Positions 25,349 to 55,548 of a DNA stretch of 64,000 nucleotides are shown piece by piece (the first letter of the stretch is position 1; each line of letters starts with the position of its first letter). The stretch is taken from positions 1,240,001 through 1,304,000 of the forward strand of contig NZ_JABBGB010000002.1 in NCBI RefSeq assembly GCF_012927185.1, given 5' to 3'. The stretch comes from Pseudoflavitalea sp. G-6-1-2 (GTDB lineage: Bacteria; Bacteroidota; Bacteroidia; Chitinophagales; Chitinophagaceae). Position numbers and translations under genes: made by a program. The notes under the pieces are model-generated. The model was not told the DNA's origin and ran no database searches. It saw only the letters and a list, made by a program, of their open reading frames with translations.

Positions 25349-25496
25349 GTGCGCATGGTGTTGTGTTCAGGGCCTTGGAATGTGTTGCACAAAAGTCCGG
25401 CTATATTCTACTGTCCTATCCTACTTGACAAAAGATCATCGGAGCCACAATACTGCCCGGCACATTTCGCGCCCCTGAACACAACACCATGCGCAC
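25349..25496 (+). repeat. R1 palindromic repeat, copy 1
   Basis: A perfect 24-bp inverted repeat (25349-25372 and 25473-25496) encloses a 100-bp core. Inside are AATGTGTTGC (25379-25388) and CCGGCACATTT (25457-25467), whose ATGTG and CACAT parts can pair again. The core aligns along its whole length with two other copies at 55.1-55.5 kb, while the arms differ in sequence. The element lies between the 3' ends of convergent genes and has no coding potential. It could be a transcribed RNA hairpin or a mobile palindromic repeat. The rest of the 25213-25511 interval holds nothing I can identify. Confidence 0.8.
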
Positions 25497-25511
25497 GATA
25501 GCCACGAAACC

Positions 25512-26105
25512 TTATCTTCCACTCCACCAGTCCGGCCGCTGATCCGCATCTTTTTTTCTTGTAACGAAATTTATATTCACCACAAAGTGATCGATCTTAT
25601 ACAACATCTCCAGTTCCACTTTGAATAATTTATACCGTTCGTCAGCAGTCTGGATTTTGAATTCGCTGATCACGAAATCTTTTTCAGTAGCAGGCTCATC
25701 GAAATCACCTTCGAGGTAGTATGCAGATCCATCTACCATTTTGAGTTTGCATTTGTTGAGCTGATTGAAAAGGCGGCGGTATTCTTTGCTCGCATCTTCG
25801 AATTCTTCGGTATGATACATCAGCGCAGCCCAGCTGGCAGTTGTATCGAGACCAGAGTTGTAATGAGCGATGATGCAGGTTTCAGCGCCGGGCAGATTCA
25901 CGGTGGATGCGTAATGCTGCAGTTCTCCTTCCTGCAATACCAGATCTCCGGTAAGGTGTTTGTAGTTGTAAGGGAAGTCACCGAGGATCGCTTCAACGGC
26001 TTTTGAAAAGCCCGGATTCGCAGGATCTTTTTTGAACAGATTCAATTGCGCATGAGCGGTTCCGATAGCCAAAAGGGCTACCGTTAGGGTAGAGATTTTT
26101 TTCAT
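25512..26105 (-). CDS. Exported protein of unknown function downstream of the metal TonB receptor
   Basis: This 197-residue protein has a clear signal peptide ending at GTAHAQ (residue 20). The mature part has alternating strands and helices, a single internal CIIAHYNSG segment, and a basic tail. I do not recognise the family. It begins 35 bp after the stop of the TonB receptor on the same strand, so the two probably form an operon at the downstream end of the copper/metal island. A periplasmic partner of the receptor is possible but unproven. Confidence 0.72.
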   Translation of the reverse strand: MKKISTLTVALLAIGTAHAQLNLFKKDPANPGFSKAVEAILGDFPYNYKHLTGDLVLQEGELQHYASTVNLPGAETCIIAHYNSGLDTTASWAALMYHTEEFEDASKEYRRLFNQLNKCKLKMVDGSAYYLEGDFDEPATEKDFVISEFKIQTADERYKLFKVELEMLYKIDHFVVNINFVTRKKDADQRPDWWSGR

Positions 26106-26140
26106 TGGGTTAGATTTTGCTGTGCAAGTTTATCACTTAT

Positions 26141-28444
26141 TCACAACTTATCACCCGTAATTGTCCACCGTAAACCTACGAATGCCCTGATACCCTGATT
26201 GGGAGCGAATACATAGTTCGGATCGAAGGTGAGACGGTAAGGATTTGGATCACCATTCACACCAACTTTCTGAATTACACCGTTGGCATCTTTTGCAACA
26301 AGTTTATCGAAGGGATCGTGAGAGCGTGCGATGATGAATGGATTGCCTTTTGCAGGCGTCCAGTTAAGCAGATTTTTTATTCCACAGTATACTTCGATGC
26401 TATGTGGCAGTTTTTTGGTGACCTGAATATTCTGAATGCTCCACACGGGGGATGTTGGTTTGCGCGGATCTTCTTCAGAAAGCAAGGGCAGGTCCATCGG
26501 ACCGTACATATTGCCGGTGTAATCGATCGTCCACTCTCCTTTTTTGAATGTGTAGGAAAGCGACCAGTTGGCGCTCCACTTTTCTGTGAGCATCTGACGA
26601 CTGGTGGTTTTGATGCCCGCATTCTTGCTTACGATGCTTACATCCTGAAAAGTGCCGCCTATATGGCCTTTCAGCCCATTGGTGAAACCGAATTCTGTGT
26701 TGAGACTAACACCTTTTGAGACAGAGTAGCCGGTAAGATTGCGATAGATGATCTGTTCGGTGTTGGTAGTGTAATCGGGAATGATGCGATTGGTGAAATG
26801 CGTGTACCATGCAGAGGCATCAAAGTTGACCCAGAAAAATTTTGTGTAGAGTTTTTTTACGTAGTTGAGGTTTACGTTGTAACTGCGTTCGGGTTCGAGT
26901 TCTTCGGGGATCAGCACATCTCTTGCGCCTGTGAGGGCGGCATGATCTTCCGTGAAGATGTTCACAACCCGAAAGCCGGTACCGGCATTGATTCTGATCA
27001 CATCATCGTTGGTAGGATTCCACTTCCATGCGATTCGTGGAGTGAAGATATGACCGTGTACCGGATGATGATCCCATCGCGCGCCGAGCAGTAATTTCTG
27101 CTTGTCGGCAATGCTGATTTCATCCTGCAAAAATATTCCGGGCAAAGGTGTGTGCTGAGGTTTGTTGCGGCCTGTGAGTGTATCGCGGGTGGCGGTGGTA
27201 TTGTCGTCGTAGGCAGTGTAACGGAATACGGCGCCGGCAAGCAGGTCGTGACTGCCGAGACTTTTATCCCAGGTGAGCTGCCCGAATGCAACTTGCTGCG
27301 AGGCATTGAAAATATTGTTGCCGTAGGCAGATCGCTGGATATGAGAATTGAATGACCCGGAGAATAATAACTTTTCGGTTGTTGGTAATTGATAGTTACC
27401 AATGAGTTCTATGCGAGATGTATAGATGCTTTCTGCGTAGAGCGAATCACCGCCGCGGAAGGGTTTGGTCCAGCGGGTATCCCCTCCCCATCTGTCTTCG
27501 TACACATAGCGCACCGCAAGGCTGGCCTGCCGGTTCTGCTGCCGCTCGAAATTGTATTTGTTGAAGATGGCAATTCTGTTTTGCTGGGTTACATCTGTGA
27601 ACTGATCGTGGTTCTTATCGATTCGATTGTTGAAAAGGAAGTAGTTCACGCCGAGAAGGCCGGTTGTTTTTTTCCATGGTTTGTATTTGAGGCCGAGATC
27701 GAAATTGTATTCTTTCCAGGAAGTGGCCATTACATCGGCAGATAGCAGCGGTGCTTTCAATGGATTTTTGGTGATCACGTTGATAAGGCCGCCAATGGCT
27801 TCGGAGCCATACAGAGATGATGCAGGGCCTTTCACCACTTCGATGCGATCTACGAGAGAGTTGGGAATGCCGCTCAATCCGTAAACAGAGCCAAGTGCGC
27901 TCACAATGGGCATGCCATCGATGAGCACCATCGTATAAGGACCTTCAAGTCCGTTGATATGGATATCACCTGTATTGCAGACGTTGCAGTTGAGTTGTGG
28001 TCTCACCCCATTTACCTGTTGCAGTGCATCGAAAATGGTGGGTGTAGGATTTCTGCGGAAGAATTGCGGTGTGTAAACTTCTACGGGAACCGGACTGGCG
28101 GTTTTGGAGACAGCTTTCATGGTTCCGGTAACAACCACGTCGGTAAGTGTTTGAGAACTTGCTTCGAGTAATATGGTGATATGTGAACCTTCGTAAGTGG
28201 TAGTATCAGATTTATATCCGATCCTTGAAATGATGAGTGTTTGGGAACTGGCAGGCGAATTCAGATTGATGAGAAACCTGCCGTCATTTCCTGCGAGCGA
28301 TTTCTTTCCGTTGAAACTGATCACAGCACCGGGCAGTGGTTCGCCGGTGGTTTTATCTTTTACTGTTCCTGAAACGCTGCTATGTTGAGCCATTGCGTGA
28401 ATACTCAGAATACAACCCAGCAGCAGATTTATGCAATATTTCAT
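26141..28444 (-). CDS. TonB-dependent receptor of the metal/copper island
   Basis: This 767-residue outer-membrane receptor has a signal peptide (1-19) and a CarboxypepD_reg-like domain (about 22-100). The plug domain (about 110-225) contains LNCNVCNTGDIHINGLEG, a CxxC pair inside the plug, and ends near GLINVITKNP; a 22-strand-type barrel follows. Its place at the edge of a run of copper genes and the paired plug cysteines suggest a metal or metal-chelate ligand, although siderophore uptake is the common default for this family. The upstream region has a DtxR-like triple half-site. It is the first gene of a two-gene unit with the exported protein downstream. Confidence 0.9.
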   Translation of the reverse strand: MKYCINLLLGCILSIHAMAQHSSVSGTVKDKTTGEPLPGAVISFNGKKSLAGNDGRFLINLNSPASSQTLIISRIGYKSDTTTYEGSHITILLEASSQTLTDVVVTGTMKAVSKTASPVPVEVYTPQFFRRNPTPTIFDALQQVNGVRPQLNCNVCNTGDIHINGLEGPYTMVLIDGMPIVSALGSVYGLSGIPNSLVDRIEVVKGPASSLYGSEAIGGLINVITKNPLKAPLLSADVMATSWKEYNFDLGLKYKPWKKTTGLLGVNYFLFNNRIDKNHDQFTDVTQQNRIAIFNKYNFERQQNRQASLAVRYVYEDRWGGDTRWTKPFRGGDSLYAESIYTSRIELIGNYQLPTTEKLLFSGSFNSHIQRSAYGNNIFNASQQVAFGQLTWDKSLGSHDLLAGAVFRYTAYDDNTTATRDTLTGRNKPQHTPLPGIFLQDEISIADKQKLLLGARWDHHPVHGHIFTPRIAWKWNPTNDDVIRINAGTGFRVVNIFTEDHAALTGARDVLIPEELEPERSYNVNLNYVKKLYTKFFWVNFDASAWYTHFTNRIIPDYTTNTEQIIYRNLTGYSVSKGVSLNTEFGFTNGLKGHIGGTFQDVSIVSKNAGIKTTSRQMLTEKWSANWSLSYTFKKGEWTIDYTGNMYGPMDLPLLSEEDPRKPTSPVWSIQNIQVTKKLPHSIEVYCGIKNLLNWTPAKGNPFIIARSHDPFDKLVAKDANGVIQKVGVNGDPNPYRLTFDPNYVFAPNQGIRAFVGLRWTITGDKL

Positions 28445-28465
28445 GGTTAAACTTCTTGTTTCCTT

Positions 28466-28503
28466 TAAACTTATTTTTAGTCTTGTCTAAATTTCTATTT
28501 AGA
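28466..28503 (-). promoter_or_regulatory. Metal-regulator-like operator and -7 box upstream of the TonB receptor
   Basis: Three half-sites lie in a row: TTTAG (28476-28480), TCTAAAT (28486-28492) and ATTTAGA (28497-28503). The last two form a perfect inverted repeat around TTCT, and the first two form a 16-bp near-palindrome like a DtxR/MntR box. On the minus strand TAAGTTTA (28466-28473) is a -7-like box, so the operator lies directly upstream of it in the promoter. The regulator family is inferred. Confidence 0.5.
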
Positions 28504-28653
28504 TAAATATAATTAAATAGTTCAAGGAGCAAAAAATATTTAGGTAAGAAAAGGAAAGAGATTGATTAAAGTCTGGTGAATGAAAGCTAACTGAATGAGT
28601 TAGAAATGAATGCAAAACAAGACTTATTTCATGGGGAGTCCCCTGTACTTCGG

Positions 28654-28815
28654 GGGTGCCCAGTCGCTCGCGAAGTAAGCCCGTACATTCAGCAACACAG
28701 CATGCCTCCAATCTATTCGGGCACTTGCGAAGCAATTCCGAACATACATTAACACGGTATGCCCCGAATCTGCTTGTGCGCTCGCGAAGCAACCTTCAAC
28801 AAACAACAACACAAC
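28654..28815. repeat. R2 tandem repeat, 57-bp period, three units
   Basis: The sub-motif GCGAAG(C/T)AA recurs with its GAAG at 28672, 28729 and 28786, exactly 57 bp apart, and flanking bases agree partly between units. A degenerate fourth unit may follow near 28843. Because 57 is a multiple of three, the minus strand can be read as 19-residue repeats (a CFASA-type unit), but no start signal or complete gene supports real translation. A 21-bp stretch at 28654-28674 is identical to 59865-59885. The 28445-28958 interval otherwise holds the receptor operator and a terminator. Confidence 0.6.
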
Positions 28816-28894
28816 ATCCTCTCGAAACCATTTGAACAGCCTGGAACAAAACTCTACCATAACTCAACAGGAGTGCTCTTCAAAGCAATTGCCG

Positions 28895-28923
28895 AAAACA
28901 AAAGGCCGGCTAAACAGCCGGCC
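28895..28923 (-). terminator. Terminator of the His/Met-rich outer-membrane protein gene
   Basis: GGCCGGCT (28904-28911) and AGCCGGCC (28916-28923) pair around AAAC. On the minus strand a T-rich tract follows (28895-28903). Confidence 0.8.
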
Positions 28924-28958
28924 CCATTTCCAGTATCGGAAATTGCACATAAAGAATA

Positions 28959-30305
28959 TTACCTCATTAACCCAGGACTCACTCTGATAAACACCTGATA
29001 AGCCCATGGATTCTTCCCATAAATGCCTTGCAATGGTTTTTCAGGAAAGTATAAAGTTGCCTGTGTTCCTATCGAGAAATCGGTTTTACCGATGTTGAAG
29101 ATCTTTCTGTTTACACCGAGTGTAACTGCACTCACCGGGAATTTCCCATCATGGCCATACTTATGTTCGTCGAGCACCAGCTCTTCCGTTGATTTCTCCA
29201 CGAACTCATATTTTCCGTAGATGGCATTCTTCTTCCAACTGAATGCAGATTCTGCGAGGAAAGAATGTTCCTGATGATTCTTGTCTACTCTGTTATATCC
29301 CCATACTGCGGCGGAGTTGAGCATCGCGCCATTGCTGAATCTTTTTGCATGGATCACAGAAGCAGTGGTTCTTTTAACGTCTTCATCGGGATGTAAAGGT
29401 TCAGGACTCTTCACAAAACCCTGAGATACCTGCAGGCTAAGTTCTTTGGTAGGATTATAGCTCAAACGCACTGCCCATGAATCGAAACGCATTTTGTCGA
29501 AATTGTAGCGGTCCTCATCCGGTTCGCGGCCAGTGAAGCTGCTACCTTCGAGTTTGAAGTTCTTGTACCGGACACCAAATGTGGCTACTCCGAAAGTGAT
29601 GTGCGTAGCATCCTGCCAGTGGTGACCAAGTGGCGCATCCGGATTGTAGAGGCTCGATGGACGGTGCATGAAAGCTGTACCACCCAGCGCAGGCTCACCG
29701 GGATAACCGAAGTAACCGAATACATCGAGGTCTTTATTAATGGCATGTGAGTAACCTACAGACAACTCAGCAAACATATCGTGCGGGTGCTGACGATCAA
29801 CAAGTGGCTGGCCTTTCCATGTTTCGCCGGATTGGAAGAGCAGCGGATATCCGTTGCCGCCCATGATAGGACGATCGAAGGAAATCATCGCACTCCAACG
29901 GAAAAGGCCTTTCTTACCTACGGCTGTTTGTCCCATTCCCATCACCCAGTTAGGTGCATCGAATTTGTAGCCACCGCGGCTGCCACTTCTGGCGATGTCC
30001 TGATTATTGTAACGGAGAAAGAGATTGCCGTGAAGCATGTACATCCATTTCTTTGTATGGAACATATATCCGTACATCGGTGCATTATCGGGCAGCCAGG
30101 CCGTACCTGAACCGTTGCGGTTCATGCTGAGATTGCGGCTGAAGGCGTGCGACATAATGGAGGGAGAGGAATGATCCATCTGCATAGTGGTGTCCATTGC
30201 TTTTTTAGCGGGCACCGTATCGCGCTGCATGTTATGGTGCTCGTGTTGTGCAGCAGCACCCAACGCAATCAGATTAAAAAGGGCTATCGGTAAAATCTTT
30301 TTCAT
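28959..30305 (-). CDS. Outer-membrane protein with His/Met-rich N-terminus, copper island
   Basis: This 448-residue protein has a signal peptide ending near GAAAQ (residue 19). A potential metal-binding stretch follows, with HEHHNM and later MQMDHSS (residues 20-55). The remainder is a beta-barrel-like region with many short aromatic strands and a terminal strand QVFIRVSP. I do not know a named family for certain. The His/Met cluster and the position 55 bp after copZ suggest an outer-membrane or periplasm-facing role in copper efflux or storage. The ATG at 30305 is preferred; the open frame extends 17 codons further upstream without a signal sequence. Confidence 0.7.
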   Translation of the reverse strand: MKKILPIALFNLIALGAAAQHEHHNMQRDTVPAKKAMDTTMQMDHSSPSIMSHAFSRNLSMNRNGSGTAWLPDNAPMYGYMFHTKKWMYMLHGNLFLRYNNQDIARSGSRGGYKFDAPNWVMGMGQTAVGKKGLFRWSAMISFDRPIMGGNGYPLLFQSGETWKGQPLVDRQHPHDMFAELSVGYSHAINKDLDVFGYFGYPGEPALGGTAFMHRPSSLYNPDAPLGHHWQDATHITFGVATFGVRYKNFKLEGSSFTGREPDEDRYNFDKMRFDSWAVRLSYNPTKELSLQVSQGFVKSPEPLHPDEDVKRTTASVIHAKRFSNGAMLNSAAVWGYNRVDKNHQEHSFLAESAFSWKKNAIYGKYEFVEKSTEELVLDEHKYGHDGKFPVSAVTLGVNRKIFNIGKTDFSIGTQATLYFPEKPLQGIYGKNPWAYQVFIRVSPGLMR

Positions 30306-30360
30306 TGTTTTAGTTCTTTCTGGTGATTCAATTTTTTTCAGGCATTGGGGCTGCAACTGA

Positions 30361-30573
30361 TCAATGCAGATCGGAGATCTGATAGTTGCCGTATTGTTTC
30401 AACGCTTCCTGGAATAATGGAGTGTTGATATGTTTCTCCATGGTGATGGTAACCTGTGGCGCTTCGCGTTTTACTTCTGCGCTGATTACGCCTGGTACCG
30501 ATTCGATGGCCTTTTTAACATTGGCTACACAGCCTGCACAAGTGATTCCTGATACGTTATAAGAGTGTGTCAT
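30361..30573 (-). CDS. CopZ-like heavy-metal-associated domain copper chaperone
   Basis: This 70-residue protein is a single HMA domain with the metal site GITCAGC (Cys12, Cys15) and the beta-alpha-beta-beta-alpha-beta spacing of copper chaperones. It probably binds Cu(I) in the cytoplasm and hands it to the P-type ATPase encoded 0.8 kb upstream. It is followed by the His/Met-rich outer-membrane protein gene. A terminator-like hairpin at 30684-30722 separates it from the upstream araC gene, so it may have its own promoter. Confidence 0.9.
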   Translation of the reverse strand: MTHSYNVSGITCAGCVANVKKAIESVPGVISAEVKREAPQVTITMEKHINTPLFQEALKQYGNYQISDLH

Positions 30574-30683
30574 TTTTGTTTGTTTTAATACCTCAAAGCT
30601 ATGGCGCCATTCTGCCGGACTGTTGTATGATTATGGCTGCGTTTTATACTTAAACAGAATGTTGGGTACGATGTAAAACAACA

Positions 30684-30722
30684 CACCCCATGCCTGTATC
30701 CTTTCGTCTACGGGATGGGGTG
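30684..30722 (-). terminator. Terminator of the copA-araC unit
   Basis: CACCCCAT (30684-30691) pairs with ATGGGGTG (30715-30722), and CCTGTA pairs with TACGGG inside. On the minus strand the stem is followed by TTGTTTTA. Confidence 0.7.
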
Positions 30723-30768
30723 AGGTAAAAATCAAACGATCGTGGCTGCGATCTGCTATTGAAAGTTA

Positions 30769-31338
30769 TCAGTCTTCACTTACTTCGTCGAGCGGCTTTC
30801 TTTTTTCGCCGCGCAATTGTTTGAAATGGCTGGGGGTGAGTCCGGTTACCTTTTTGAACTGACTGCTCAAATGCGCTACGCTGCTGTATCCCAGCTCGTA
30901 GGCGATTTGGGTGAGGCTCATCTCATCGTACACCAGCAATTCTTTTGCCCGCTCTATTTTCTGCAAAATGAAGAATTGCTCAATGGTAATTCCTTCCACT
31001 TCGGAGAACAGTTTGCTGAGCGAAGAGTAATCGCGGTGCAGGCTGCTGCTGAGGAATTCGGAGAGATTCATTTTCTCCAGCTGATCGGGTTCCTGCACCA
31101 GTTTGATGAGGGTGGTCTTCATGCTTTCGATGAGCTGCGAAGAGCGGTCTCCGATCAGTTCGAAACCGAACTCATTCAGTTTTTGTTCGATCTCGCCCAC
31201 CTGTTGGGCAGACGGTTCATCTTTCAGTTCAACTTCTCCGAGTCGCATCACCATTACATTATGTCCTAGTTTTTCCAATTCCGTTTTCACTACCCATTTA
31301 CACCTGTTACAAACCATGTTCTTTATGTGCAATAACAT
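30769..31338 (-). CDS. AraC-family regulator with metal-binding-like N-terminal domain
   Basis: This 189-residue protein joins an N-terminal segment that looks like a heavy-metal-associated fold (residues 1-70, with HIKNMVCNRC giving Cys10 and Cys13) to a C-terminal AraC HTH domain (about 90-180, with LTQIAYELGYSSVAHLSSQF). The CNRC pair in a chaperone-like context suggests direct metal sensing, which is inference. The ATG at 31338 is preferred because it gives an 11-bp gap to copA; an upstream start at 31365 would overlap the end of copA by 16 bp. It directly follows copA, so it probably controls the copper genes. Direct repeats upstream of copA are the candidate binding site. Confidence 0.82.
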   Translation of the reverse strand: MLLHIKNMVCNRCKWVVKTELEKLGHNVMVMRLGEVELKDEPSAQQVGEIEQKLNEFGFELIGDRSSQLIESMKTTLIKLVQEPDQLEKMNLSEFLSSSLHRDYSSLSKLFSEVEGITIEQFFILQKIERAKELLVYDEMSLTQIAYELGYSSVAHLSSQFKKVTGLTPSHFKQLRGEKRKPLDEVSED

Positions 31339-31349
31339 ACTGAGGGATT

Positions 31350-33584: not shown

Positions 33585-33603
33585 GATGATAAAATTGATA
33601 CCA

Positions 33604-33611
33604 CAAAATTA
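33604..33611 (-). promoter_or_regulatory. copA promoter -7 box
   Basis: On the minus strand this reads TAATTTTG, matching TAnnTTTG, 20 bp before the copA start codon. Confidence 0.6.
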
Positions 33612-33631
33612 TCACACATCGCCCCCGCGGC

Positions 33632-33664
33632 TGTTACACAATTACCGGAACTGTTTACACAATT
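33632..33664. promoter_or_regulatory. Direct repeats upstream of the copA promoter
   Basis: TGTTACACAATT (33632-33643) and TGTTTACACAATT (33652-33664) repeat with a period of 20-21 bp, two helical turns, as AraC-family activators prefer. They lie at and just upstream of the expected -33 position of copA. The second unit includes the palindrome ACACAATTGTGT (33657-33668). Confidence 0.5.
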
Positions 33665-33670
33665 GTGTGC

Positions 33671-34531: not shown

Positions 34532-34541
34532 ATCCCCTGTG

Positions 34542-35087: not shown

Positions 35088-35114
35088 AACAGAATAATTT
35101 AAACGATGGAATGA

Positions 35115-35585: not shown

Positions 35586-35656
35586 GATAGAATCAATTAA
35601 ATAATGAGTAATAAAAGTTGTTGCAAACAAAAAATGCGTGTTTGTACAAACTTGTA

Positions 35657-36043: not shown

Positions 36044-36049
36044 TCCAAA

Positions 36050-36090
36050 CAAAAATACCCGGAATTTTCTTAAAAAGAAACTCCGGGTAT
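36050..36090 (-). terminator. Terminator of the porin gene whose T-tract is also the next promoter
   Basis: ATACCCGGA (36055-36063) pairs with TCCGGGTAT (36082-36090). On the minus strand the T-run reads TATTTTTG (36050-36057), which is also a full TAnnTTTG -7 box, 6 bp before the HYC_CC_PP start codon. The hairpin ends transcription from the porin gene, and the same bases can start the copper unit. Confidence 0.7.
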
Positions 36091-42881: not shown

Positions 42882-42893
42882 ACGATATCGGTT

Positions 42894-46547: not shown

Positions 46548-46556
46548 AATACTCGC

Positions 46557-46595
46557 AAATCTGTCAGTTTACCCTTTCCGTAAACTGACAGATTT
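46557..46595 (+). terminator. Hairpin terminator after sprE
   Basis: AAATCTGTCAGTTTAC (46557-46572) pairs perfectly with GTAAACTGACAGATTT (46580-46595). No long T-run follows beyond the stem. Confidence 0.7.
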
Positions 46596-46635
46596 AAAGC
46601 ATTAACAATATTTTACGCATTTTCGCGGATCGCCT

Positions 46636-46678
46636 TTGCACCTGAAACCGTTTGATATATCTTTCGGGTGCAATTTTT
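46636..46678 (+). terminator. Second hairpin with T-run, upstream of the PBP1A gene
   Basis: TTGCACCTGAAA (46636-46647) pairs with TTTCGGGTGCAA (46662-46673) with one T-G pair, and five Ts follow. It lies 51 bp before the PBP1A start codon. It may be a second terminator for sprE or an attenuator for the next gene. Confidence 0.6.
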
Positions 46679-46728
46679 GCTTTGAAGTAGCAACCCTGAT
46701 AGCAGATTAAAATGTTAATTTTCTTTAT

Positions 46729-49140
46729 ATGACCCGAGCAGTACGGATCTTTTGGCGCATCTTTTTATACGGAACACTGGCAGTGATACTGCTGCTGGTG
46801 CTGATCAATTTCGGAGTATTTGGTAAAATGCCTTCACTGGCCCAGCTGGAAAACCCATCCATTACGCTGGCTACCGAAGTATTTGCCGACGACGGTACTC
46901 CGATGGGAAAATATTTCCGGGACCGCGGCAACCGCAGCTACGTGAAATACGGAGACATCTCCAAACACGTGGTGGATGCACTGGTGGCCACAGAAGATGA
47001 ACGCTTTTACGATCACTCCGGCATCGACGGCAGAAGCCTTTCGCGCGCCATTCTGAAACTGGGCCGCGACGGTGGTGGCAGTACCATCACACAGCAGCTG
47101 GCGCTGAATATGTTCGACAGCCGGGCTACCAATATCTTCCTCCGCATCATTCAGAAGATAAAGGAGAATATCATTGCCATCAAACTGGAGCGCAACTTCA
47201 CCAAACAGGAGATACTGGCGCTCTATCTCAATACCGTTTCGTTCTCGGATAACGTTTACGGCATCCGCAATGCATCGCGCACATTCTTTTCAAAAGAACC
47301 GGATCGCCTCACCGTTCCCGAAGCAGCAGTACTGGTGGGCATGCAGAAAGCAACATCCACTTACAATCCACGCACCAACTACAAACTGGCATTCGACAGA
47401 AGAAATACGGTGATCGATCAGATGGTGCGCAACAACTATCTCAGCGCAGCATCTGCAAATGATATGAAGAAGGAACCCATCCGTCTCAACTACAATAAAA
47501 TGGATGAGAACAATGGTATCGCTCCTTACTTCCTCGATGTGCTCCGTGGCGATCTCAAAGCATGGTGCAAAGAGAACAAGAAAGAGAACGGAGAACCTTA
47601 TGATCTCTATGCAGATGGTCTCCGCATCTATACCACCATCAATCCACGCATGCAGCTCTATGCAGAAGAAGCGGTGGCCAAACACCTGCCTGTGCTGCAA
47701 CGCGCACTCAGCCGCCAGCAGAACATCAAATCCGATGCTGTATGGAAAGGAAAGGAAAAAGTGCTGGAAGCAGCCATGAAAGCCAGCGACCGCTGGGATA
47801 ACATGAAGAAGGAAGGCATGAGTGACGATGAAATCCGCAAGAGCTTCAACACCAAAGTGAGCATGAAAGTGTTTGCCTGGAATCCGAAACGTGAGAAAGA
47901 TACAGTGATGTCGCCACTCGATTCTATCAAGTATCATCACGAAATGGTGCAGACTGCCTTTATGGTAACCGATCCTCAGAACGGACAGGTGAAAGCATGG
48001 GTAGGCGGTATCGATTTCAAGAACTACAAGTACGACCACGCCAATCTGAGAACCAAGCGTCAGGTGGGTTCATCTATCAAGCCCTACCTCTATGCGCTGG
48101 CAGTGGAAGAATACGGATTCACACCCGAAACACAGTGTGAAGCCACCCAGCAATATTTCCCTGGCTTCGGTTATGTGCCTGCAAAGAATCGTGGCAAAAC
48201 CGGCACCCGCACCATGGCGAGCGGATTGGCCTGGTCTGTGAACGAAGTAGCGGCGTACATTATCAAGCAGACAACTGCTCAGCGTTTTGCGGAGTTTCTG
48301 AAGCAGATCAATATTCCAACGAAAGTAGATCCCTACCCCAGTATTGCACTGGGTTCCTGCGACCTGAGTTTGTTTGAAATGATGTGGGGTTACTCCATGT
48401 TCCCAACAGGCGGCTTCTCAGCAAAGCCCGTATACATCACCCGCATTGAAGACAAGAATGGACATATACTGGCCCGCTTCGATACCGATCGCAAAGAAGT
48501 GATCAGTCAGGCTACCGCCTACACCATGGCTCGCATGATGCAGGGCGTAACCGACTTCGGTACAGCAGCCGGCCTCCGTTCACGTTTAGGCGTAGCCGAA
48601 ATGGGCGGTAAAACAGGTACCACCAACGATAACTCCGATGCATGGTTCATGGGGTATACGCCTCAGCTCCTCGCCGGTGTTTGGATTGGTTGCGACGATC
48701 GTTTCATCAGACTCGACAATGGATTGGGAGAAGGTGGACAGGCTGCACGTCCTATCTGGGAGTATTTCTTCCAGAAAGCATTTGCAGACAAAACACTGGG
48801 GCTCGACAGATCAGCCAAGTTTGTACAGCCGGAGAATATGAAAACCGAAAGCTTCTACGACTACTACAATATCATCGATAAAACACCACCTCCGGGTGCA
48901 GAAGGCGAGAATGTAGGAAGCGGCGGTGCAGATGATTTCCTCGGAACACCGGATACGCAGAACATCCCTACAGAATCGAAACAGGCGATGGAAGAGCAGA
49001 AGGTATTGCAGGAAGCCACTAACGCAAAGAATCAGGTGCCTGTAGAGAAGAAAGAAAATGCAACGCAGCCAAAGCAGGAAGAAAAGAAGAAGCCTGGATT
49101 CTTCAAACGCATCTTCGGAGGAAAGAAAGACAAAGAGTAA
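46729..49140 (+). CDS. Class A penicillin-binding protein (PBP1A-like, transglycosylase/transpeptidase)
   Basis: This 803-residue peptidoglycan synthase has one N-terminal membrane helix (about 8-30). The glycosyltransferase domain (about 60-230) shows ATEDERFYDHSGIDG and GGSTITQQLALN. The transpeptidase domain (about 330-690) shows the SxxK-type GSSIKPY, SxN as WSVNE, and KTGTTN. A lysine-, glutamate- and proline-rich tail (750-803) lies in the periplasm. It polymerises and cross-links peptidoglycan. All catalytic motifs are present. The 180-bp gap to sprE holds two hairpins. A perfect palindromic terminator follows the stop codon. Confidence 0.96.
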   Translation: MTRAVRIFWRIFLYGTLAVILLLVLINFGVFGKMPSLAQLENPSITLATEVFADDGTPMGKYFRDRGNRSYVKYGDISKHVVDALVATEDERFYDHSGIDGRSLSRAILKLGRDGGGSTITQQLALNMFDSRATNIFLRIIQKIKENIIAIKLERNFTKQEILALYLNTVSFSDNVYGIRNASRTFFSKEPDRLTVPEAAVLVGMQKATSTYNPRTNYKLAFDRRNTVIDQMVRNNYLSAASANDMKKEPIRLNYNKMDENNGIAPYFLDVLRGDLKAWCKENKKENGEPYDLYADGLRIYTTINPRMQLYAEEAVAKHLPVLQRALSRQQNIKSDAVWKGKEKVLEAAMKASDRWDNMKKEGMSDDEIRKSFNTKVSMKVFAWNPKREKDTVMSPLDSIKYHHEMVQTAFMVTDPQNGQVKAWVGGIDFKNYKYDHANLRTKRQVGSSIKPYLYALAVEEYGFTPETQCEATQQYFPGFGYVPAKNRGKTGTRTMASGLAWSVNEVAAYIIKQTTAQRFAEFLKQINIPTKVDPYPSIALGSCDLSLFEMMWGYSMFPTGGFSAKPVYITRIEDKNGHILARFDTDRKEVISQATAYTMARMMQGVTDFGTAAGLRSRLGVAEMGGKTGTTNDNSDAWFMGYTPQLLAGVWIGCDDRFIRLDNGLGEGGQAARPIWEYFFQKAFADKTLGLDRSAKFVQPENMKTESFYDYYNIIDKTPPPGAEGENVGSGGADDFLGTPDTQNIPTESKQAMEEQKVLQEATNAKNQVPVEKKENATQPKQEEKKKPGFFKRIFGGKKDKE

Positions 49141-49153
49141 AATGATTCAGCAT

Positions 49154-49193
49154 AAAAAGAGCGGCCCGGCAGATCTGCCGGGCCGCTCTTTTT
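49154..49193. terminator. Bidirectional terminator between the PBP1A gene and the surface protein gene
   Basis: A perfect 40-bp palindrome is centred at 49173/49174; the stem contains GAGCGGCCCGGCAGA. T-runs exist in both directions, serving two convergent genes. Confidence 0.92.
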
Positions 49194-49230
49194 TTTATCG
49201 GTCATACTCTTGAAAAGATGCACTTCTGCA

Positions 49231-50661
49231 TTACTTCTTAGCTTTCTTCAGTTCTTCCATATCGCGCTTCAATTGTTCGATCACAGATAAAGTAACTTTT
49301 TCACTGGCTTTCATCTGCTCTATCTGTTTTTGTTGTTCGATGATGTAAAGCGTCATCTCTTCTACCTTCTTCAGCAACGTAACCTGTGTTTCGCCAACGT
49401 CAGCGCCATTCTTTTCAATTTCAGCAGCAGTGGGCACTTCAGGCAGGTGTTTGTTCTTTCTGATGAAGGCTTCCACTTCTTTCAGTGAAGGCAGTTTGTA
49501 GTCGTCAGCAAAAACATAGTCCGCCCATCCTGTAGCCGTGATCTTTACTTTTTTAGCATATACATCACCATTTACTGCCAGCATACCGCGGGGAGCTGCA
49601 GTACCGATAGTTACACTGCCATCAGCTTTGATGCGCATTTTCTCGGTGTTATTGGTAATGAAAGGAAGGTCGAAATTATCGGTAGTCCCGAAATTTTTTA
49701 TGGCTCCTACAGTAGCGCCATCCAGCGTCCACGAATTGGCGCTGCCACCGATTCCGGCTGCATCGCGCCATGCGAGGTTGCCATTGACGTCGGATACGAT
49801 CACTCGTGCAGGCGTGGTGTTCTCGGTGAGCGTTTCAAACTTGATGGTTCCTTTTACATGAAACATGGCTCCGGGAGATGAAGTTCCTACCCCTATCGCT
49901 CCATTAGGGTTCACTCTGAAGCGTTCTACGCCGGCAGTCCACAATGTTACCGGACCTCCGCACATTACCTGAGACAGGCTTGCGTCTGTACCCCATGAAA
50001 GTTTGGAACCCCCAGTTTTACTGAGCAGCAAATTTGCGTGAGTGGTATCACCATAAAGAATATTATTCACTGTGGCATTACCATTCACATGCAGTTGGGT
50101 TGCGGGGTTAATTGTATTGATACCTACTCTTCCCGTACTGGTAATGCGGATGGATTCCTGATCAACAGTCGCATTTTTAGAGAAGAAAGAAAGACCCCAG
50201 TTGTCGTTATTCGTAAAAACTGCTCCCATACCATAGAACTGGCCGGTTGTTCCATTAGTATAGAAGCCATATTTTTCACCATGGCCTATTTTGAATCCCT
50301 GATAACCGTTAATAAAAGCACCATAGACTCCGGCAAACCAAATTTTTCCCTGGGTTCCTGTACTTGTACCCCCAAGCCTAAAATATGATTGAGGATTGGT
50401 GTTACCGAAATAGGTTTCAAAACCCGCAGATGCTTTGATGGTAGTGTTATACCCGGCCTGATAGATCTCTGAATAATACATAGGATTACTCAAACGGATA
50501 AGGGTTGCATTACTGGTATCATGAATATGAAGGTCGGCAAGCGGAGTGGTAGTACCGATACCTACTTTACCGGTAGCTGGCCATGGATTGGTATTCTGAG
50601 CGATCAAACCTGCACATGGGATGGCGGATAAGGCGGCCATCACAAAAAATTGTTTCAACAT
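49231..50661 (-). CDS. Exported fibre-like protein with C-terminal coiled coil
   Basis: This 476-residue protein has a signal peptide (1-21). Repeated short units with a G-(I/V)-(G/N)-T-x-x-P pattern follow (about residues 33, 185, 260 and 355), each continuing into LHV/FHV/LAV-NG. The conserved end includes KLPSLKEVEAFIRKNKHLPE and a long Lys/Glu coiled coil (about 425-476). This layout is common in Bacteroidota surface proteins called tail-fibre-like; the name does not imply a phage, and no phage genes are nearby. I infer a trimeric cell-surface fibre. No T9SS C-terminal domain is visible, so the export route past the periplasm is unclear. Confidence 0.75.
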   Translation of the reverse strand: MLKQFFVMAALSAIPCAGLIAQNTNPWPATGKVGIGTTTPLADLHIHDTSNATLIRLSNPMYYSEIYQAGYNTTIKASAGFETYFGNTNPQSYFRLGGTSTGTQGKIWFAGVYGAFINGYQGFKIGHGEKYGFYTNGTTGQFYGMGAVFTNNDNWGLSFFSKNATVDQESIRITSTGRVGINTINPATQLHVNGNATVNNILYGDTTHANLLLSKTGGSKLSWGTDASLSQVMCGGPVTLWTAGVERFRVNPNGAIGVGTSSPGAMFHVKGTIKFETLTENTTPARVIVSDVNGNLAWRDAAGIGGSANSWTLDGATVGAIKNFGTTDNFDLPFITNNTEKMRIKADGSVTIGTAAPRGMLAVNGDVYAKKVKITATGWADYVFADDYKLPSLKEVEAFIRKNKHLPEVPTAAEIEKNGADVGETQVTLLKKVEEMTLYIIEQQKQIEQMKASEKVTLSVIEQLKRDMEELKKAKK

Positions 50662-51010
50662 TTCTGATTAGTTTAAGGAATTTAGGCGAATTGAGCAGCG
50701 TAATATAATTGTTCTCTATATTATCATCAATTTCATTTAGTAAGTGTGCAGTCTTTTTTCATTTTTGTGTGGGAAAATATTGCAGGATTTCATTCATACC
50801 ACAAACCCTGCAGTTGATAGGTTCATTCCGGTAATGCATCACCATCAAAGAAGCAACATCCTCTCAAACCCGCTCCCATAGCCAATTTCATCGACTCTCC
50901 GGATCAGCCGTTCATTACAGCCTTTCATCCATTTATTATTGCATACGATCAAAATACTCCGCGTTCCACCAATGTATTTGGGTAAATTAGAATTCTAAAA
51001 ACAGTACAAC
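50662..51010. other. Intergenic region between divergent surface-protein and DUF2911 genes
   Basis: This 349-bp divergent gap must contain the promoters of both neighbours, but no full TAnnTTTG box with good spacing was found. A short stretch near 50852-50872 (GAAGCAACATCCTCTC) resembles part of the third R2 unit at 28786-28830 and could be a decayed remnant. Nothing else was recognised. Confidence 0.5.
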
Positions 51011-52120
51011 ATGAGAAGGCCTTTACTTATCTGCTCTGCCCTGCTCTGGGCATCTGCTGCATTTTCACAACTCATCACCACTCCCGAAGGCGGCAACAAA
51101 AAAGCGATGGTTGGAGAACGCATCGGCATCACCGATGTTACCGTTCACTACGACCGTCCCGGTGTAAAAGGAAGAGACGGCGCCATTTACGGCAAACTGG
51201 TATACGAAGGTTTTGCCGATCTCGGTTTTGGTTCCAGCAAAGCTGCTCCCTGGCGCGCAGGTGCCAATGAAAATACCACCGTTGAATTCTCCACCGATGT
51301 GAAAGTAGAAGGCCAGCCGCTTCCCGCCGGCAAATACGGATTCTTCATTGCATATGGCCCCAACGAAAGCACTGTGATCTTCTCAAAAAACAGTACATCG
51401 TGGGGCAGTTTTTTCTATGATCCGAAAGAAGATGCACTTCGTGTAAAAATAAAACCAGTAGCCAATGACCACAGTGTGGAATGGCTGCAATATCAGTTCA
51501 TCAATCAAACCGAAGCGGGCGCCACGCTTGAACTGGCATGGGAGAAACTGCGTTTCCCCCTCCGCATCGAAACAGATTTGGTGAACCTGCAGATTGCTTC
51601 CTTCAGAAATGAACTGCGTGGTGAGAGAAGTTACAATCCCGGATGGCAATCTTACAACCAGGCCGCCACTTATTGCCTCACCAACAATACCAATCTCGAC
51701 GAAGGGCTTCGCTGGATCGATTACGCTCTCACCGGCATGTACGTGGGTGTAAAGAACTTCCCCAACCTCAGCGTGAAAGCACAGCTGCTGGAAAAACTCA
51801 ATCGCGGTGAAGAAGCGAAAGCGATTATGAAAGATGCACTCTCTCTCGGCACTTCCGACGAACTGCATAACTATGCGAGATTGCTGGTGCAGGAAAAGAA
51901 ACCGAAAGAAGCTTTCGATGTATTCAAATTGAATTACGATCGCAGTCCAAATACATTTACCACCAATGTTGGTCTGATGCGCGGCTACTCTGCGCTCGGC
52001 AATTACAAAAAAGCATTGGAGTATGCGAACAAAGCATTACCGCAGGCAACGGATAAAACCGTTCAGAAAAACATTGAATGGTACATCAAACTGCTCGGAG
52101 ACGGTAAAGACATGAATTAA
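51011..52120 (+). CDS. DUF2911 domain protein with TPR-like C-terminus
   Basis: This 369-residue exported protein has a signal peptide ending near AAFSQ (residue 20). A DUF2911 domain (about 25-180) follows, with DVTVHYDRPGVKGRDGAIYG and PLPAGKYGFF as landmarks. The C-terminal half (about 200-369) has repeated helical pairs like tetratricopeptide units. The function is unknown; the family is widespread in Bacteroidota and periplasmic or outer-membrane associated. It stands alone with a long perfect-arm hairpin after the stop codon. Confidence 0.85.
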   Translation: MRRPLLICSALLWASAAFSQLITTPEGGNKKAMVGERIGITDVTVHYDRPGVKGRDGAIYGKLVYEGFADLGFGSSKAAPWRAGANENTTVEFSTDVKVEGQPLPAGKYGFFIAYGPNESTVIFSKNSTSWGSFFYDPKEDALRVKIKPVANDHSVEWLQYQFINQTEAGATLELAWEKLRFPLRIETDLVNLQIASFRNELRGERSYNPGWQSYNQAATYCLTNNTNLDEGLRWIDYALTGMYVGVKNFPNLSVKAQLLEKLNRGEEAKAIMKDALSLGTSDELHNYARLLVQEKKPKEAFDVFKLNYDRSPNTFTTNVGLMRGYSALGNYKKALEYANKALPQATDKTVQKNIEWYIKLLGDGKDMN

Positions 52121-52147
52121 ATTTCCATGAAATAGTCACCTGTTTCA

Positions 52148-52196
52148 AAACGGGATAGGATCTTTTGCAGAAAACCTGCGGGGATCTATCCCGTTT
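52148..52196 (+). terminator. Terminator of the DUF2911 gene
   Basis: AAACGGGATAG (52148-52158) pairs with CTATCCCGTTT (52186-52196), with an inner GCAG/CTGC hairpin. Moderate T content follows. Confidence 0.75.
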
Positions 52197-52403
52197 CCTT
52201 TTGTGAAAATGATCGTCTATTTTACAGACGTCATAAATGCAAATCCCGCTAAACCTTACCGCCACAGCATTTCAGCGGATGCAAAATCGCCACACTTTTA
52301 ACATCCACTGTATCTGCATCATCAAACAAAAGCTTACAACCATTCGTTATAAATACTGAAAAACTATAACGAATAATACTTCGCACCGATTCAGCTTTGT
52401 ACG

Positions 52404-52434
52404 TTTGTGTATCGGAAACAAAACCTTATTTTTG
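52404..52434 (+). promoter_or_regulatory. Promoter of pfkA-pyk
   Basis: TTTG (52404-52407), 19 bp of spacer and TATTTTTG (52427-52434) form a canonical Bacteroidota promoter about 90 bp before pfkA. The rest of the 52197-52523 gap holds no recognised feature. Confidence 0.75.
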
Positions 52435-52523
52435 AACCTCATTTCGCAAAAACGTAGAAAGTTTTTAACGATTTCTATCTCTTTTTGGAAGATTAATAAC
52501 AAACTGCTAATAGAATTAAATTC

Positions 52524-53507
52524 ATGGCAAAGAAGGTCTCGAAAATCGGAGTTCTAACTTCCGGTGGCGATTCTCCCGGTATGAATGCCGCCATCCGTGC
52601 TGTTGTGAGAACGGGTCTGTATCATGGGCTGGAAGTATTTGGCATCATGCGCGGCTATGCCGGCATCATTGAAAACGATATTGTTCCGATGCACTCCCGC
52701 AGTGTGGCCAATATCATTCAGCGTGGCGGAACGGTGCTGAAAACAGCCCGTTGCAAAGAGTTCCTTTCTCCCGAAGGCCGTCAGAAAGCCTACAATAACC
52801 TGAAAGCCCTGGGCATCGACGGCCTGGTAGTGATCGGTGGTGATGGTTCTTTCCGCGGCGCCGATATCTTCAGCCGCGAATTCGATATCCCCTGCATCGG
52901 ATTACCCGGAACCATCGATAAAGACATTGCGGGAACCGATTTCACCATCGGTTTCGATACAGCTGTAAACACCGCTGTTGAAGCCATCGATAAAATCCGC
53001 GATACCGCAGACGCACACGACCGACTCTTCATCATCGAAGTGATGGGCCGCGACGCCGGCTATATCGCCCTCCATAGCGGCATCGCAACAGGAGCTGAGC
53101 ACATTCTCATCCCCGAACGCAAAACCGATATCGAAGAACTGATTGTATCACTGCAGGAAAAAGAAAGACGCAAGAAACTCGTGAACATGGTGGTGGTTGC
53201 CGAAGGCGAAGAATTCGGCGGCGCCAATGAACTGGCTAAAGTGATCAAAGAAAGACTTCCATCGGCAGACACACGCGTTTGCATACTCGGACATATTCAG
53301 CGCGGCGGATCTCCTACCTGCATGGACAGGCTGATTGCCAGCCGCATGGGCTACGCAGCCGTGGATTGCCTCATCGAAGGCAAACACAATGTAATGGTAG
53401 GCATCGTAAACAACCGCCTTCAGTACACACTGCTCGAAAAAGCCGTGAAAAGCAAACAACGCATCGGTGAAGACTGGATCAAGATGGTGAAGATCCTCGC
53501 CAGCTAA
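52524..53507 (+). CDS. pfkA: ATP-dependent 6-phosphofructokinase
   Basis: This 327-residue cytoplasmic enzyme shows the nucleotide-binding GVLTSGGDSPGMNAAIR (about 9-25), the GGDGSFRGA loop, the catalytic segment PGTIDKDIAGTD, and HIQRGGSPT. All are marks of bacterial PfkA, the committed step of glycolysis. The Gly in GGDGS after the second glycine pair fits ATP rather than pyrophosphate use. It is followed 43 bp later by pyk, so the two key glycolytic enzymes are co-transcribed from a canonical promoter. The length is normal. Confidence 0.97.
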   Translation: MAKKVSKIGVLTSGGDSPGMNAAIRAVVRTGLYHGLEVFGIMRGYAGIIENDIVPMHSRSVANIIQRGGTVLKTARCKEFLSPEGRQKAYNNLKALGIDGLVVIGGDGSFRGADIFSREFDIPCIGLPGTIDKDIAGTDFTIGFDTAVNTAVEAIDKIRDTADAHDRLFIIEVMGRDAGYIALHSGIATGAEHILIPERKTDIEELIVSLQEKERRKKLVNMVVVAEGEEFGGANELAKVIKERLPSADTRVCILGHIQRGGSPTCMDRLIASRMGYAAVDCLIEGKHNVMVGIVNNRLQYTLLEKAVKSKQRIGEDWIKMVKILAS

Positions 53508-53550
53508 CCCCGTAACATATTTGAACAAGGTGAAAATCTAAACTAAACAA

Positions 53551-55044
53551 ATGGCTAGAGACATTACTAAATATCTGCATGGCGAAATGAACAAAGCCGC
53601 AGGTAAGGACCATAGCACCCATCGTACAAAGATTGTAGCTACTGTTGGTCCGGCTTGCGACACATACGAGAAGTTGCTCGAACTGGTGAAAGCAGGTGTT
53701 AACATCTTCCGTCTGAACTTCTCTCACGGAAGTCAGGAAGATAAAGCGAAGATCATCGGCTTTATCCGTGAGATCAATAAAAAAGAACCCTACAATATTG
53801 CCATCCTCGGCGACCTTCAGGGACCAAAACTCCGTGTTGGTGAAATCGAGAACGGCGCACTGCCCATTGTTCCCGGCGACATCCTCACTTTCTCTTCCAA
53901 AGAAAAAGTAGTAGGCACCAAAGAAAGGATCTACGTTTCTTATCCAAACCTCCACGAAGATGTTGAGATCGGCAACAAAATCCTCATCGACGATGGCAAG
54001 CTCGAAGTAGAAGTGGTAGACGTTACCAAAGACGGCGATGTAAAAGTGAAAGTAACGTATGGCGGTACTCTCCTTCCCAAGAAAGGCGTTAACCTGCCCG
54101 ATACCCGCATCTCACTGCCATCCATGACCGAAAAAGACATTGCCGACCTGGCTTTCATCATCGAGCAGGAGCTCGACTGGGTGGCACTTTCATTCGTTCG
54201 CAAAGCAGAAGACATTGTAGACCTCAAGAAAAGGCTTGCAGAAAAGAATTCAAAAACCAAAGTGATCGCCAAGATCGAAATGCCTTCGGCACTGGTTGAT
54301 CTCCGCAATATCATTATCGAATCGGATGGTGTGATGGTTGCCCGCGGCGACCTCGGTGTTGAGCTGCCGGTAGAGAAAGTACCTATGGCGCAGCGCGACA
54401 TCATCCGCAAATGTATCCACCGCGCCAAACCCGTTATCGTAGCTACCCAGATGATGGAGAGCATGATCGACCGCGTAAAACCAAACCGCTCCGAGATCAC
54501 AGACGTAGCCAATGCCGTTCTCGAAGGCGCTGACGCAGTAATGCTCAGCGGCGAGACTGCTACCGGCAAACATCCTCCCCTCGTTGTGGAAACCATGCGC
54601 AAGATCATTCTCGAAGTGGAAAGAACCGAATACCGCTACAACCGCGAAGACGATCTCAAACCACAGCCTCACTCTCCCAGCTTCCTCAGCGATGCAGCCT
54701 GTTACAACGCCTGTAAGCTGGCCGACGACACACAGGCTGATGGCCTCATTGGCATGACGCAGAGCGGCTACACAGCCTTTATGCTCAGCAGCTATCGCCC
54801 GAAAGCGCCTCTGTATATTTTCACGAAGGAACGTTCTCTGGTGAATCAGCTGAGCCTCAGCTGGGGCGTACGTGCCTTCTTTTATGATGAAGAAGAAAGT
54901 CTGGATGAGATCATCCACGACCAGCATAAGATCCTTAAAGAGCGCGGATTTGCGAAAACAGGAGATGTTATCGTTAACACAGGTTCTACCCCAGTAAAGG
55001 AGCACCTGCCTACCAACGTGATCAAGATCACAAAGATAGTCTAA
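53551..55044 (+). CDS. pyk: Pyruvate kinase
   Basis: This 497-residue enzyme contains TKIVATVGPACDTYE at the start, ILGDLQGPKLRVGEI, the active-site KIEMPSALVDL with the conserved lysine, VARGDLGVELP, and ATQMMESMI. It converts phosphoenolpyruvate and ADP to pyruvate and ATP at the end of glycolysis. The C-terminal regulatory domain (about 370-497) is present. The gene follows pfkA by 43 bp and ends at a perfect terminator, so pfkA-pyk is a two-gene operon. Confidence 0.97.
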   Translation: MARDITKYLHGEMNKAAGKDHSTHRTKIVATVGPACDTYEKLLELVKAGVNIFRLNFSHGSQEDKAKIIGFIREINKKEPYNIAILGDLQGPKLRVGEIENGALPIVPGDILTFSSKEKVVGTKERIYVSYPNLHEDVEIGNKILIDDGKLEVEVVDVTKDGDVKVKVTYGGTLLPKKGVNLPDTRISLPSMTEKDIADLAFIIEQELDWVALSFVRKAEDIVDLKKRLAEKNSKTKVIAKIEMPSALVDLRNIIIESDGVMVARGDLGVELPVEKVPMAQRDIIRKCIHRAKPVIVATQMMESMIDRVKPNRSEITDVANAVLEGADAVMLSGETATGKHPPLVVETMRKIILEVERTEYRYNREDDLKPQPHSPSFLSDAACYNACKLADDTQADGLIGMTQSGYTAFMLSSYRPKAPLYIFTKERSLVNQLSLSWGVRAFFYDEEESLDEIIHDQHKILKERGFAKTGDVIVNTGSTPVKEHLPTNVIKITKIV

Positions 55045-55066
55045 GCATAGACGTGATGAAATACAG

Positions 55067-55092
55067 ATCCGGTGCAGCATGCTGCACCGGAT
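55067..55092 (+). terminator. Terminator of pfkA-pyk
   Basis: A perfect 26-bp palindrome (ATCCGGTGCAGCA and its complement) is followed by six Ts. Confidence 0.92.
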
Positions 55093-55124
55093 TTTTTATT
55101 GTAGCTGTTGCTTTTGTTTTTACC

Positions 55125-55276
55125 GGCCGCAAAGGGATATGAGAATCCGTCTGAAAAATGTGCCGGACAGAGTTGTATCTCCGATAGACTTTTGTTGGGA
55201 GGATGGAACAATAGAATATATTTCAAAGCCTGTGCAACACATTTTAAGGACGGGATTATCATATCCCATTGCGGCC
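55125..55276 (-). repeat. R1 palindromic repeat, copy 2 (reverse orientation)
   Basis: Arms 55125-55151 and 55249-55276 are inverted with two mismatches and one extra base. The core, read on the minus strand, aligns with copy 1 and copy 3: GCAACACATT at 55234-55243 and AAATGTGCC at 55156-55164 are the reverse of the blocks in the other copies. Its arms are related to but not the same as those of copy 3, and the changes keep the two arms paired. It lies just after the pfkA-pyk terminator. Confidence 0.8.
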
Positions 55277-55390
55277 TGACCGCTGATTGTGCAGATTTTC
55301 AGCACCTTTGCTTTGGGGCTGATCGTTAAGTAACGTTGCCCAACAACCGCTCTCAGACGGAAACCCTTACGCAGTTGCACATGCTGTAAC

Positions 55391-55548
55391 CGGGCAGCAA
55401 TGGGTGTGAGCAATCCAGGCCTTAAAATGTGTTGCGCAAAAGCCTGGTTGTATTCCGCTGCCCAATCCGGTCCCATACCAGTTGATCTGTGATTCTACAC
55501 TGCCGGGCACATTTTTCAGCCGGATTGATCACAACCCTTTGCTGCCCG
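55391..55548 (+). repeat. R1 palindromic repeat, copy 3
   Basis: Arms 55391-55416 and 55522-55548 are nearly perfect inverted repeats; the core shows AATGTGTTGC (55426-55435) and GGCACATTT (55506-55514). It points towards the cutC gene end, in the opposite orientation to copy 2. The 114 bp between the copies (55277-55390) has no recognised content. Confidence 0.8.

Follow-up and report, generated by a model that had tools for sequence, protein, structure and literature searches.

We report that a 64,000-nucleotide stretch of the genome of Pseudoflavitalea sp. G-6-1-2 (contig NZ_JABBGB010000002.1, positions 1,240,001 to 1,304,000; hereafter the window, position 1 being its first letter) contains three members of a real, constrained and genus-limited family of paired hairpin repeats. 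The best reading is that of a new family of paired palindromic repeats, similar to bacterial interspersed mosaic elements (BIMEs) and to the REPINs formed by repetitive extragenic palindromic (REP) sequences, in a reversed architecture where the arms diverge between loci and the core is shared. Each copy is about 150 nt long. Read along the plus strand, it has a 5' arm, an internal loop with the word CCTT, the first side of the inner stem, a C-rich loop, the second side of that stem, a short internal loop and a 3' arm; the two arms, of about 25 bp, pair with each other and are specific to the locus. An initial annotation of the window had proposed three copies, with arms that differ between copies but still pair within each copy, and both pairing and covariance-model matches confirmed them. 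In the solitary copy 1 (25349–25496, plus strand; model match 25343–25500, 142.2 bits) the outer arms at 25349–25372 and 25473–25496 pair at 24 of 24 positions. Copies 2 (55125–55280, minus strand; 126 bits) and 3 (55390–55548, plus strand; 125.2 bits) are the left and right members of an inverted pair; the 24-nt arms of copy 2 (55125–55148 and 55253–55276, minus strand) are complementary at 22 of 24 positions (92%), and the 15-nt outer arms of copy 3 (55391–55405 and 55534–55548) at 14 of 15 (93%), with inner pairing beyond. Measured against 200 dinucleotide shuffles, the folds gave z values on the two strands of -9.5 and -9.4 for copy 1, -7.0 and -7.7 for copy 2 with its first 3 nt left off, and a weak -1.7 and -2.1 for copy 3 with its last 8 nt left off.

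The occurrence of further copies in relatives had been set beforehand as a test of the proposal, and such copies were found. A covariance model built from 19 copies (R1) detected 59 copies in the source genome (G000) and, among its five congeners (G001 to G005), 71 in G001, 63 in G002 and 69 in G004, counts that may be low, with 150 candidates scored per genome; scoring 81 candidates under a stricter E-value gave 55–60 copies. R1 found no copy in the congeners G003 and G005 and none in 31 genomes outside the genus, and a second model, R2, matched in this genus only among 117 genomes (strict filters, 25 candidates scored in each). A DNA search with copy 1 returned 17 further matches in the source genome, including the reverse complement of copy 1 itself, and no match in 38 other genomes. 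Moreover, a core pattern searched in genome contigs hit 27 stretches, 19 of which came from Pseudoflavitalea rhizosphaerae (7) or the metagenome-assembled genome (MAG) BIN25 (12), placing P. rhizosphaerae KACC 18655 and a Chitinophagaceae MAG among the carriers, while the other 8 lay in unrelated records and were taken as chance without inspection. Viral contigs held no exact match to this pattern, and phage carriage is thus unsupported. A scan of 400 kb of G003 for a different palindrome family yielded two weak palindromes, versus none in one shuffle; this is weak evidence of absence, because the same detector, run on the window, reported copy 1 but missed copies 2 and 3 as units, returning one cross-pair between them. 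Among the top-listed open-access papers on palindromic repeats of Chitinophaga, REPIN/RAYT, stem-loops, BIME/Rho, miniature inverted-repeat transposable elements (MITEs) or the Pseudoflavitalea genome, we found no description of the family. RepRanger, which limits palindrome loops to 11 nt (PMC12306157), would therefore miss this long-loop repeat.

The copies obey a strict rule of arrangement. Neighbouring copies were inverted (-,+) with their 5' sides facing in 20 of 20 cases in G000, 23 of 23 in G004 and 12 of 12 in G001 (55/55); from these counts, as from those of gene context and orthologue changes below, we dropped L248, L185 and L127, each a match antisense to a stronger one, and L112, a duplicate of locus L073. 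Eleven of the 20 two-copy G000 loci lie away from convergent genes, in tandem or divergent contexts, and still show the (-,+) geometry, which is therefore not imposed by gene orientation. Pair spacers measured 50–351 bp in the 20 G000 pairs and 71–987 bp in 20 G004 pairs, three further G004 pairs being about 0.7, 1.6 and 1.9 kb apart. At two sites followed through the six congeneric genomes, both hairpins were present or both absent, save for one truncated G004 copy. The 3' side of the copy points toward a gene 3' end in 40 of 59, 42 of 55 and 27 of 34 cases. The initial annotation had sited both window loci between the 3' ends of convergent genes, which is so for these two; as a rule for the family it becomes an enrichment only, 20 of 39 G000 loci lying between convergent open reading frames (ORFs) versus 25 of 116 background ORF pairs (p 0.0009, simple ORF calls). 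Insertion behind intrinsic terminators, hinted at by single loci, found no support in a count: separate terminator-like hairpins between the stop codon and the copy showed no enrichment (G000 4 of 39 loci, G004 4 of 39, control 6 of 72). The flanking sequence as printed showed no obvious T run 3' of the hairpin, by inspection rather than by a systematic T-run test.

Directly 5' of the arm stands a motif resembling GTTGCACNTTCAGCG, with three or fewer mismatches in 33 of the 59 G000 copies and in none of 59 after shuffling, although it was derived from the same copies in which it was counted; it is weaker in alignment A4, which holds mostly copies of the relatives (6/30 versus 0/30). Two types of core occur, with a similar loop middle. 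Cores in G000 are mostly of the first, with a TTGCAC head and a CTGCCCGG tail, and two G000 copies carry the second, with a AAGCGAAGAAGC head and a CGCGCCGGTT tail, to which 28 of 34 copies sampled from the other three genomes belong when sorted by eye. About 8 of 20 G004 spacers share, again by eye, a further block around GTGAYGCACTCTTTCCCCATCC. The plus-strand loop is C-rich and G-poor, C exceeding G in 57 of 59, 56 of 56 and 34 of 34 copies.

The arms covary. In model-fitted alignments of the 59 copies 93.5% of cells were paired, versus 63.9% after shuffling and 34–47% in slid registers, and 486 cells showed two-sided change versus 127 after shuffling; for 34 copies from relatives the paired share was 93.1% versus 59.9% shuffled, and two-sided changes occurred at 7 of the 10 pairs of the inner helix among the 59 G000 copies. 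Importantly for the source of this signal, a comparison of two species removes shared ancestry among paralogues. We used 26 orthologous G001/G004 copies from 17 shared loci; the 680 arm pairs that are Watson-Crick in G001 were read in G004, with no condition set on the G004 side. Seventeen pairs had changed on both sides and 16 of these were again Watson-Crick, where 0.76 would be expected if the sides were independent, while 45 had changed on one side (G.T 10, A.C 10, other 25). Thus, arm covariation is above phylogenetic background, as the proposal required, although part of it could come from one arm correcting the other. In the same copies the arms had changed at 106 of 1636 sites (6.5%), the upstream flank at 369 of 1915 (19%) and the loop at 332 of 2126 (16%), so that the arms are slower than flank and loop (Fisher p 2e-30 and 7e-19, the sites not being fully independent). 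The CCTT region had changed at 5 of 208 sites and the motif region at 73 of 516, and CCTT and inner stem were little changed in the 24 of 26 copies that remained after two without an anchor were dropped. The picture of a conserved core with changing arms consequently describes paralogues but is turned round between orthologues, where it is the loop that changes fast and the arms that change slowly.

The sites are largely shared between species. Of the 22 G001 loci, 17 could be aligned to a locus among the 34 sampled in G004 (16 of 21 without L233, which had been fetched via that very G004 site), and two of the five unmatched G001 loci, when tested, proved to have copies in G004 too. Flanking genes are shared with one of the 34 G004 loci by 9 of 39 G000 loci, on both flanks in 7 of the 9; 11 of 39 had any match, L059–L063 (50–59% identity) not being counted as orthologous, L041–L072 is a G002 match outside the nine, and one further G000 site matches a G001 site. 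All nine inspected G000/G004 shared sites carry one core type in G000 and the other in G004, which argues for homogenisation within genomes. At three tested sites the spacer in G005 and G003 is short and contains no copy, and G000 is also empty at one; the narrower distribution suggests that these empty sites reflect insertion in the carriers rather than loss. Two G000 loci share about 3 kb at 91% identity; the shared segment stops at the outer hairpin edge, or about 13 bp from it at most, and this argues for copying. In summary, the distribution fits a spread in the common ancestor of G000, G001, G002 and G004, followed mainly by vertical descent and homogenisation within each genome. The duplicated loci, L237:15652–18634 and L238 (G000 C2 and C3), have their other end near a 48-bp palindrome and contain an ORF of 288 aa that matches no family over the cut-off, and one of 128 aa with weak similarity to SymE (NCBIfam E 0.002 and Pfam E 0.049, neither reaching the cut-off).

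We give about an even chance to the interpretation that the family is a dispersed palindromic DNA repeat of BIME/REPIN-like layout, old and still constrained as a hairpin. Its basic unit would be two hairpins of about 150 bp in mirror image, with their 5' sides facing across a spacer of usually 50–550 bp and a GYTGCAC-type motif at the 5' side of many hairpins; single hairpins are probably units whose partner was lost or eroded. Copying of the unit to numerous intergenic positions most likely took place in the clade's ancestor, by way of a single-stranded hairpin and a putative enzyme, after which inheritance would have been largely vertical, as it has been at the shared sites, and copies may have been kept alike within a genome by copying or conversion, as the genome-specific cores suggest. 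Slower change and covariation point to selection keeping the hairpin. As for function, which we infer, the most likely present role, put forward tentatively, would be that of a structural boundary placed behind the 3' ends of genes, with its action mainly at the DNA level; DNA rather than RNA is suggested by the absence of a wobble bias among the one-sided orthologue changes.

Several observations weigh against this interpretation. Most positions are common to G001 and G004, which makes the movement old. Of the three sites tested, the third shows both hairpins only in G004 and one each in G000 and G001 (the G002 contig ends there), a pattern that does not suit a simple two-hairpin unit, and some pairs, 0.7–1.9 kb apart, have other ORFs inside. 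Target-site duplications could not be read in flanks that are too diverged, and the duplication of about 3 kb is a single case, with no second repeat copy at its other end. Divergence of the downstream flank is 11% (168/1472), only 1.8-fold above the arms. The models R1 (E up to 10) and R2 (E up to 5) found no copy in 9 Y1_Tnp loci and 8 RAYT-like loci, respectively, each set having been scanned with one model only and with flanks of about 1.5 kb, and Y1/RAYT-type genes are equally present in the repeat-free G003 and G005. Finally, isolated helix mismatches comprised 32 G.T versus 10 A.C (p 0.0009, the copies not being independent), an excess that suggests folding of the plus strand and would be compatible with RNA as well.

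A structured RNA is the most probable of the alternatives. The plus strand would be transcribed outward from the spacer or by read-through and would fold, its C-rich loop being read by a protein such as Rho, and the pair would shield convergent genes from antisense transcripts. The loop composition, the enrichment at convergent sites and the strong conservation of CCTT between paralogues, with CCTT and inner stem little changed between orthologues, all agree with it, as does the wobble excess, which persisted under a laxer rule (45 versus 19). However, a recount on strand-symmetric alignments had a mixed outcome, G.T and A.C numbering 87 and 88 over all aligned arm positions and wobble making up about 1.4% of pairs, and the counts from the model-fitted alignments (26 versus 8 and 15 versus 3) may be biased because the model rewards G-U. 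Moreover, the wobble preference is absent from the one-sided orthologue changes (10 versus 10), the loop, presumed to be the part read by protein, has a rate of change close to that of the upstream flank, 19 of 39 G000 loci are not between convergent ORFs, and Rfam has no match on the copies (window 25000–56000, E up to 1). We regard an RNA function as possible but not favoured, with a rather low probability. Of the initial proposal that selection acts on an RNA or DNA hairpin, covariation and slow arms sustain the hairpin, and the one-sided changes give the RNA form no support.

A more far-reaching version of the DNA interpretation, which we consider unlikely to hold in full, would be a novel chromosomal element class in which the hairpin stem is private to each locus and is maintained between species through paired changes, only head-to-head pairs occur, the core is rewritten genome-wide in each species, and the pair serves as a DNA-level boundary (a cruciform, a protein-bound hairpin or a topological stop) behind gene ends. 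Here repeat sites can be traced across species, with a slow stem, clean compensatory changes and a genome-specific core, and this makes testable the old question of whether such repeats are only selfish relics or have a structural job in the chromosome; strict mirror-image pairing is an unusual rule for which any mechanism must account.

Less probable still is a decaying, functionless relic, in which template switching corrects one arm from the other and generates covariation without selection. One-sided mismatches of every kind do occur, a single copy (L242:3033–3184) holds 4 of 13 two-sided Watson-Crick changes in one count, as a correction event could give, the G004 copy mentioned above is truncated, and paired copies within a locus share stretches, as expected from conversion. 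But the upstream flank has changed 3 times as much as the arms, and CCTT and inner stem are slower still; by our reasoning this counts against a relic, because unbiased correction should leave the neutral rate.

Y1_Tnp and REP_Tyr_transpos matches occur in all six congeners, and NF047646, the model for the REP-associated tyrosine transposase (RAYT, or TnpA-REP), matches in 6 of 6 (E up to 0.001), over its cut-off in two (G003 and G004). A RAYT-like protein of about 200 aa common to all six (L275, L276, L277, L278, L279 and L280) reads HIHENP where a published table has YIH[QN]NP for RAYT subclass 2.6, so that its catalytic tyrosine seems lost, and the protein seems to have been long retained despite that loss; further RAYT-like proteins with the tyrosine (L273 and L274) read YVHQNP in G003 and YVHENP in G004. 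None of the Y1/RAYT-type loci examined links a transposase or other donor enzyme to the copies, and a RAYT/IS200 link is unsupported, no examined gene being near a copy. That the repeats are true REP/REPIN elements of the RAYT of the genus, only unusual ones, is thus very doubtful: the model matches in every congener and the tyrosine-bearing second protein of G004 would suit it, but the genes are equally present without the repeat in G003, which has a tyrosine protein as well, and in G005, the protein common to all six appears to lack its catalytic residue, no copy lies within about 1.5 kb of the genes examined, and each repeat measures about 150 nt, not 20–40. As a separate observation, G000 encodes a 142-aa Y1/IS200-type transposase ORF (L104:1468–1896), with similar 142-aa ORFs in G001, G002 and G004, which reads FIGRQ where the literature table has a YI..NQ motif; in G000 the Y1_Tnp gene is flanked by ORFs resembling DAHP synthase and dehydroquinate synthase.

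Among known systems the family is closest to REP/BIME/REPIN sequences, with which it shares a large number of intergenic copies, a unit made of an inverted pair, a tendency to sit at gene 3' ends and in convergent spacers, and compensatory changes in the hairpin. PMC3733652 states that in many families most units are near neighbours in opposite orientation, and that the repeats are found mainly between unidirectional or convergent ORFs. In contrast to the 20–40-bp palindrome of those elements, the present repeat has about 150 nt, arms of about 25 bp and a long loop; the arms vary between loci around a shared core, the reverse of the usual pattern, and are conserved at a locus between two species. 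Furthermore, no RAYT gene is linked to the repeats at the examined loci, and RAYT presence does not track them, the model matching in all six congeners and the repeats occurring in four. As size and RAYT linkage, which are defining features, both fail, we do not file the repeat under BIME/REPIN. The empty sites in G005 and G003 recall MITEs. ERIC, which is the same as RU-1, is palindromic and is not known to have fixed head-to-head pairs or locus-specific arms that pair. Compared by description rather than by sequence, ERIC/RU elements are likewise small (103–168 bp), mobile-looking intergenic repeats, called MITE-like in PMC2759123. The systematically collected stem-loop sequence families of PMC2267715 are similar in being repeated families with a shared foldable stem-loop, and the main text of that source, in which no word starts with Bacteroid, gives no sign of coverage of the phylum Bacteroidota.

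In the window itself, copy 1 lies between the 3' ends of convergent ORFs at 23974–25212 (plus) and 25512–26105 (minus), neither with a Pfam match, its 3' arm ending 15 bp short of the stop of the latter. Between its arms it has the strongly conserved CCTT word (25373–25376), an inner stem formed by GGAATGTG (25377–25384) and CACATTTC (25461–25468), and a loop (25385–25460) with a TTGCAC head, an ATCCT middle block and a CATCGGAG..CTGCCCGG tail; a degenerate upstream motif with 4 mismatches to GTTGCACNTTCAGCG occupies 25327–25341 (plus). Copies 2 and 3 are located between the 3' ends of the convergent ORFs 53551–55044 (plus, pyruvate kinase) and 55571–56317 (minus, CutC), copy 2 directing its 3' end toward the end of the pyruvate-kinase gene and copy 3 ending 22 bp from that of the cutC-like gene. 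A spacer of 109 bp (55281–55389) separates their 5' sides and contains the upstream motifs of copy 2 (55281–55295, minus, 3 mismatches) and copy 3 (55374–55388, plus, 4 mismatches). Elsewhere in the genus, G001, G002 and G004 have the same ORF of about 190 aa between the members of a pair, presumably a RibD/dihydrofolate-reductase-type protein, and one G004 spacer (L187:2206–4079) holds two extra ORFs (346 and 124 aa), the G001 spacer (L252) being about 430 bp long. Finally, positions 49078–49250 of the window gave a sub-threshold Rfam match to L20_leader on the plus strand (37 bits, E 0.0006; weaker on the minus strand), which adjoins the end of an ORF stopping at 49140 and is perhaps a terminator-like palindrome.

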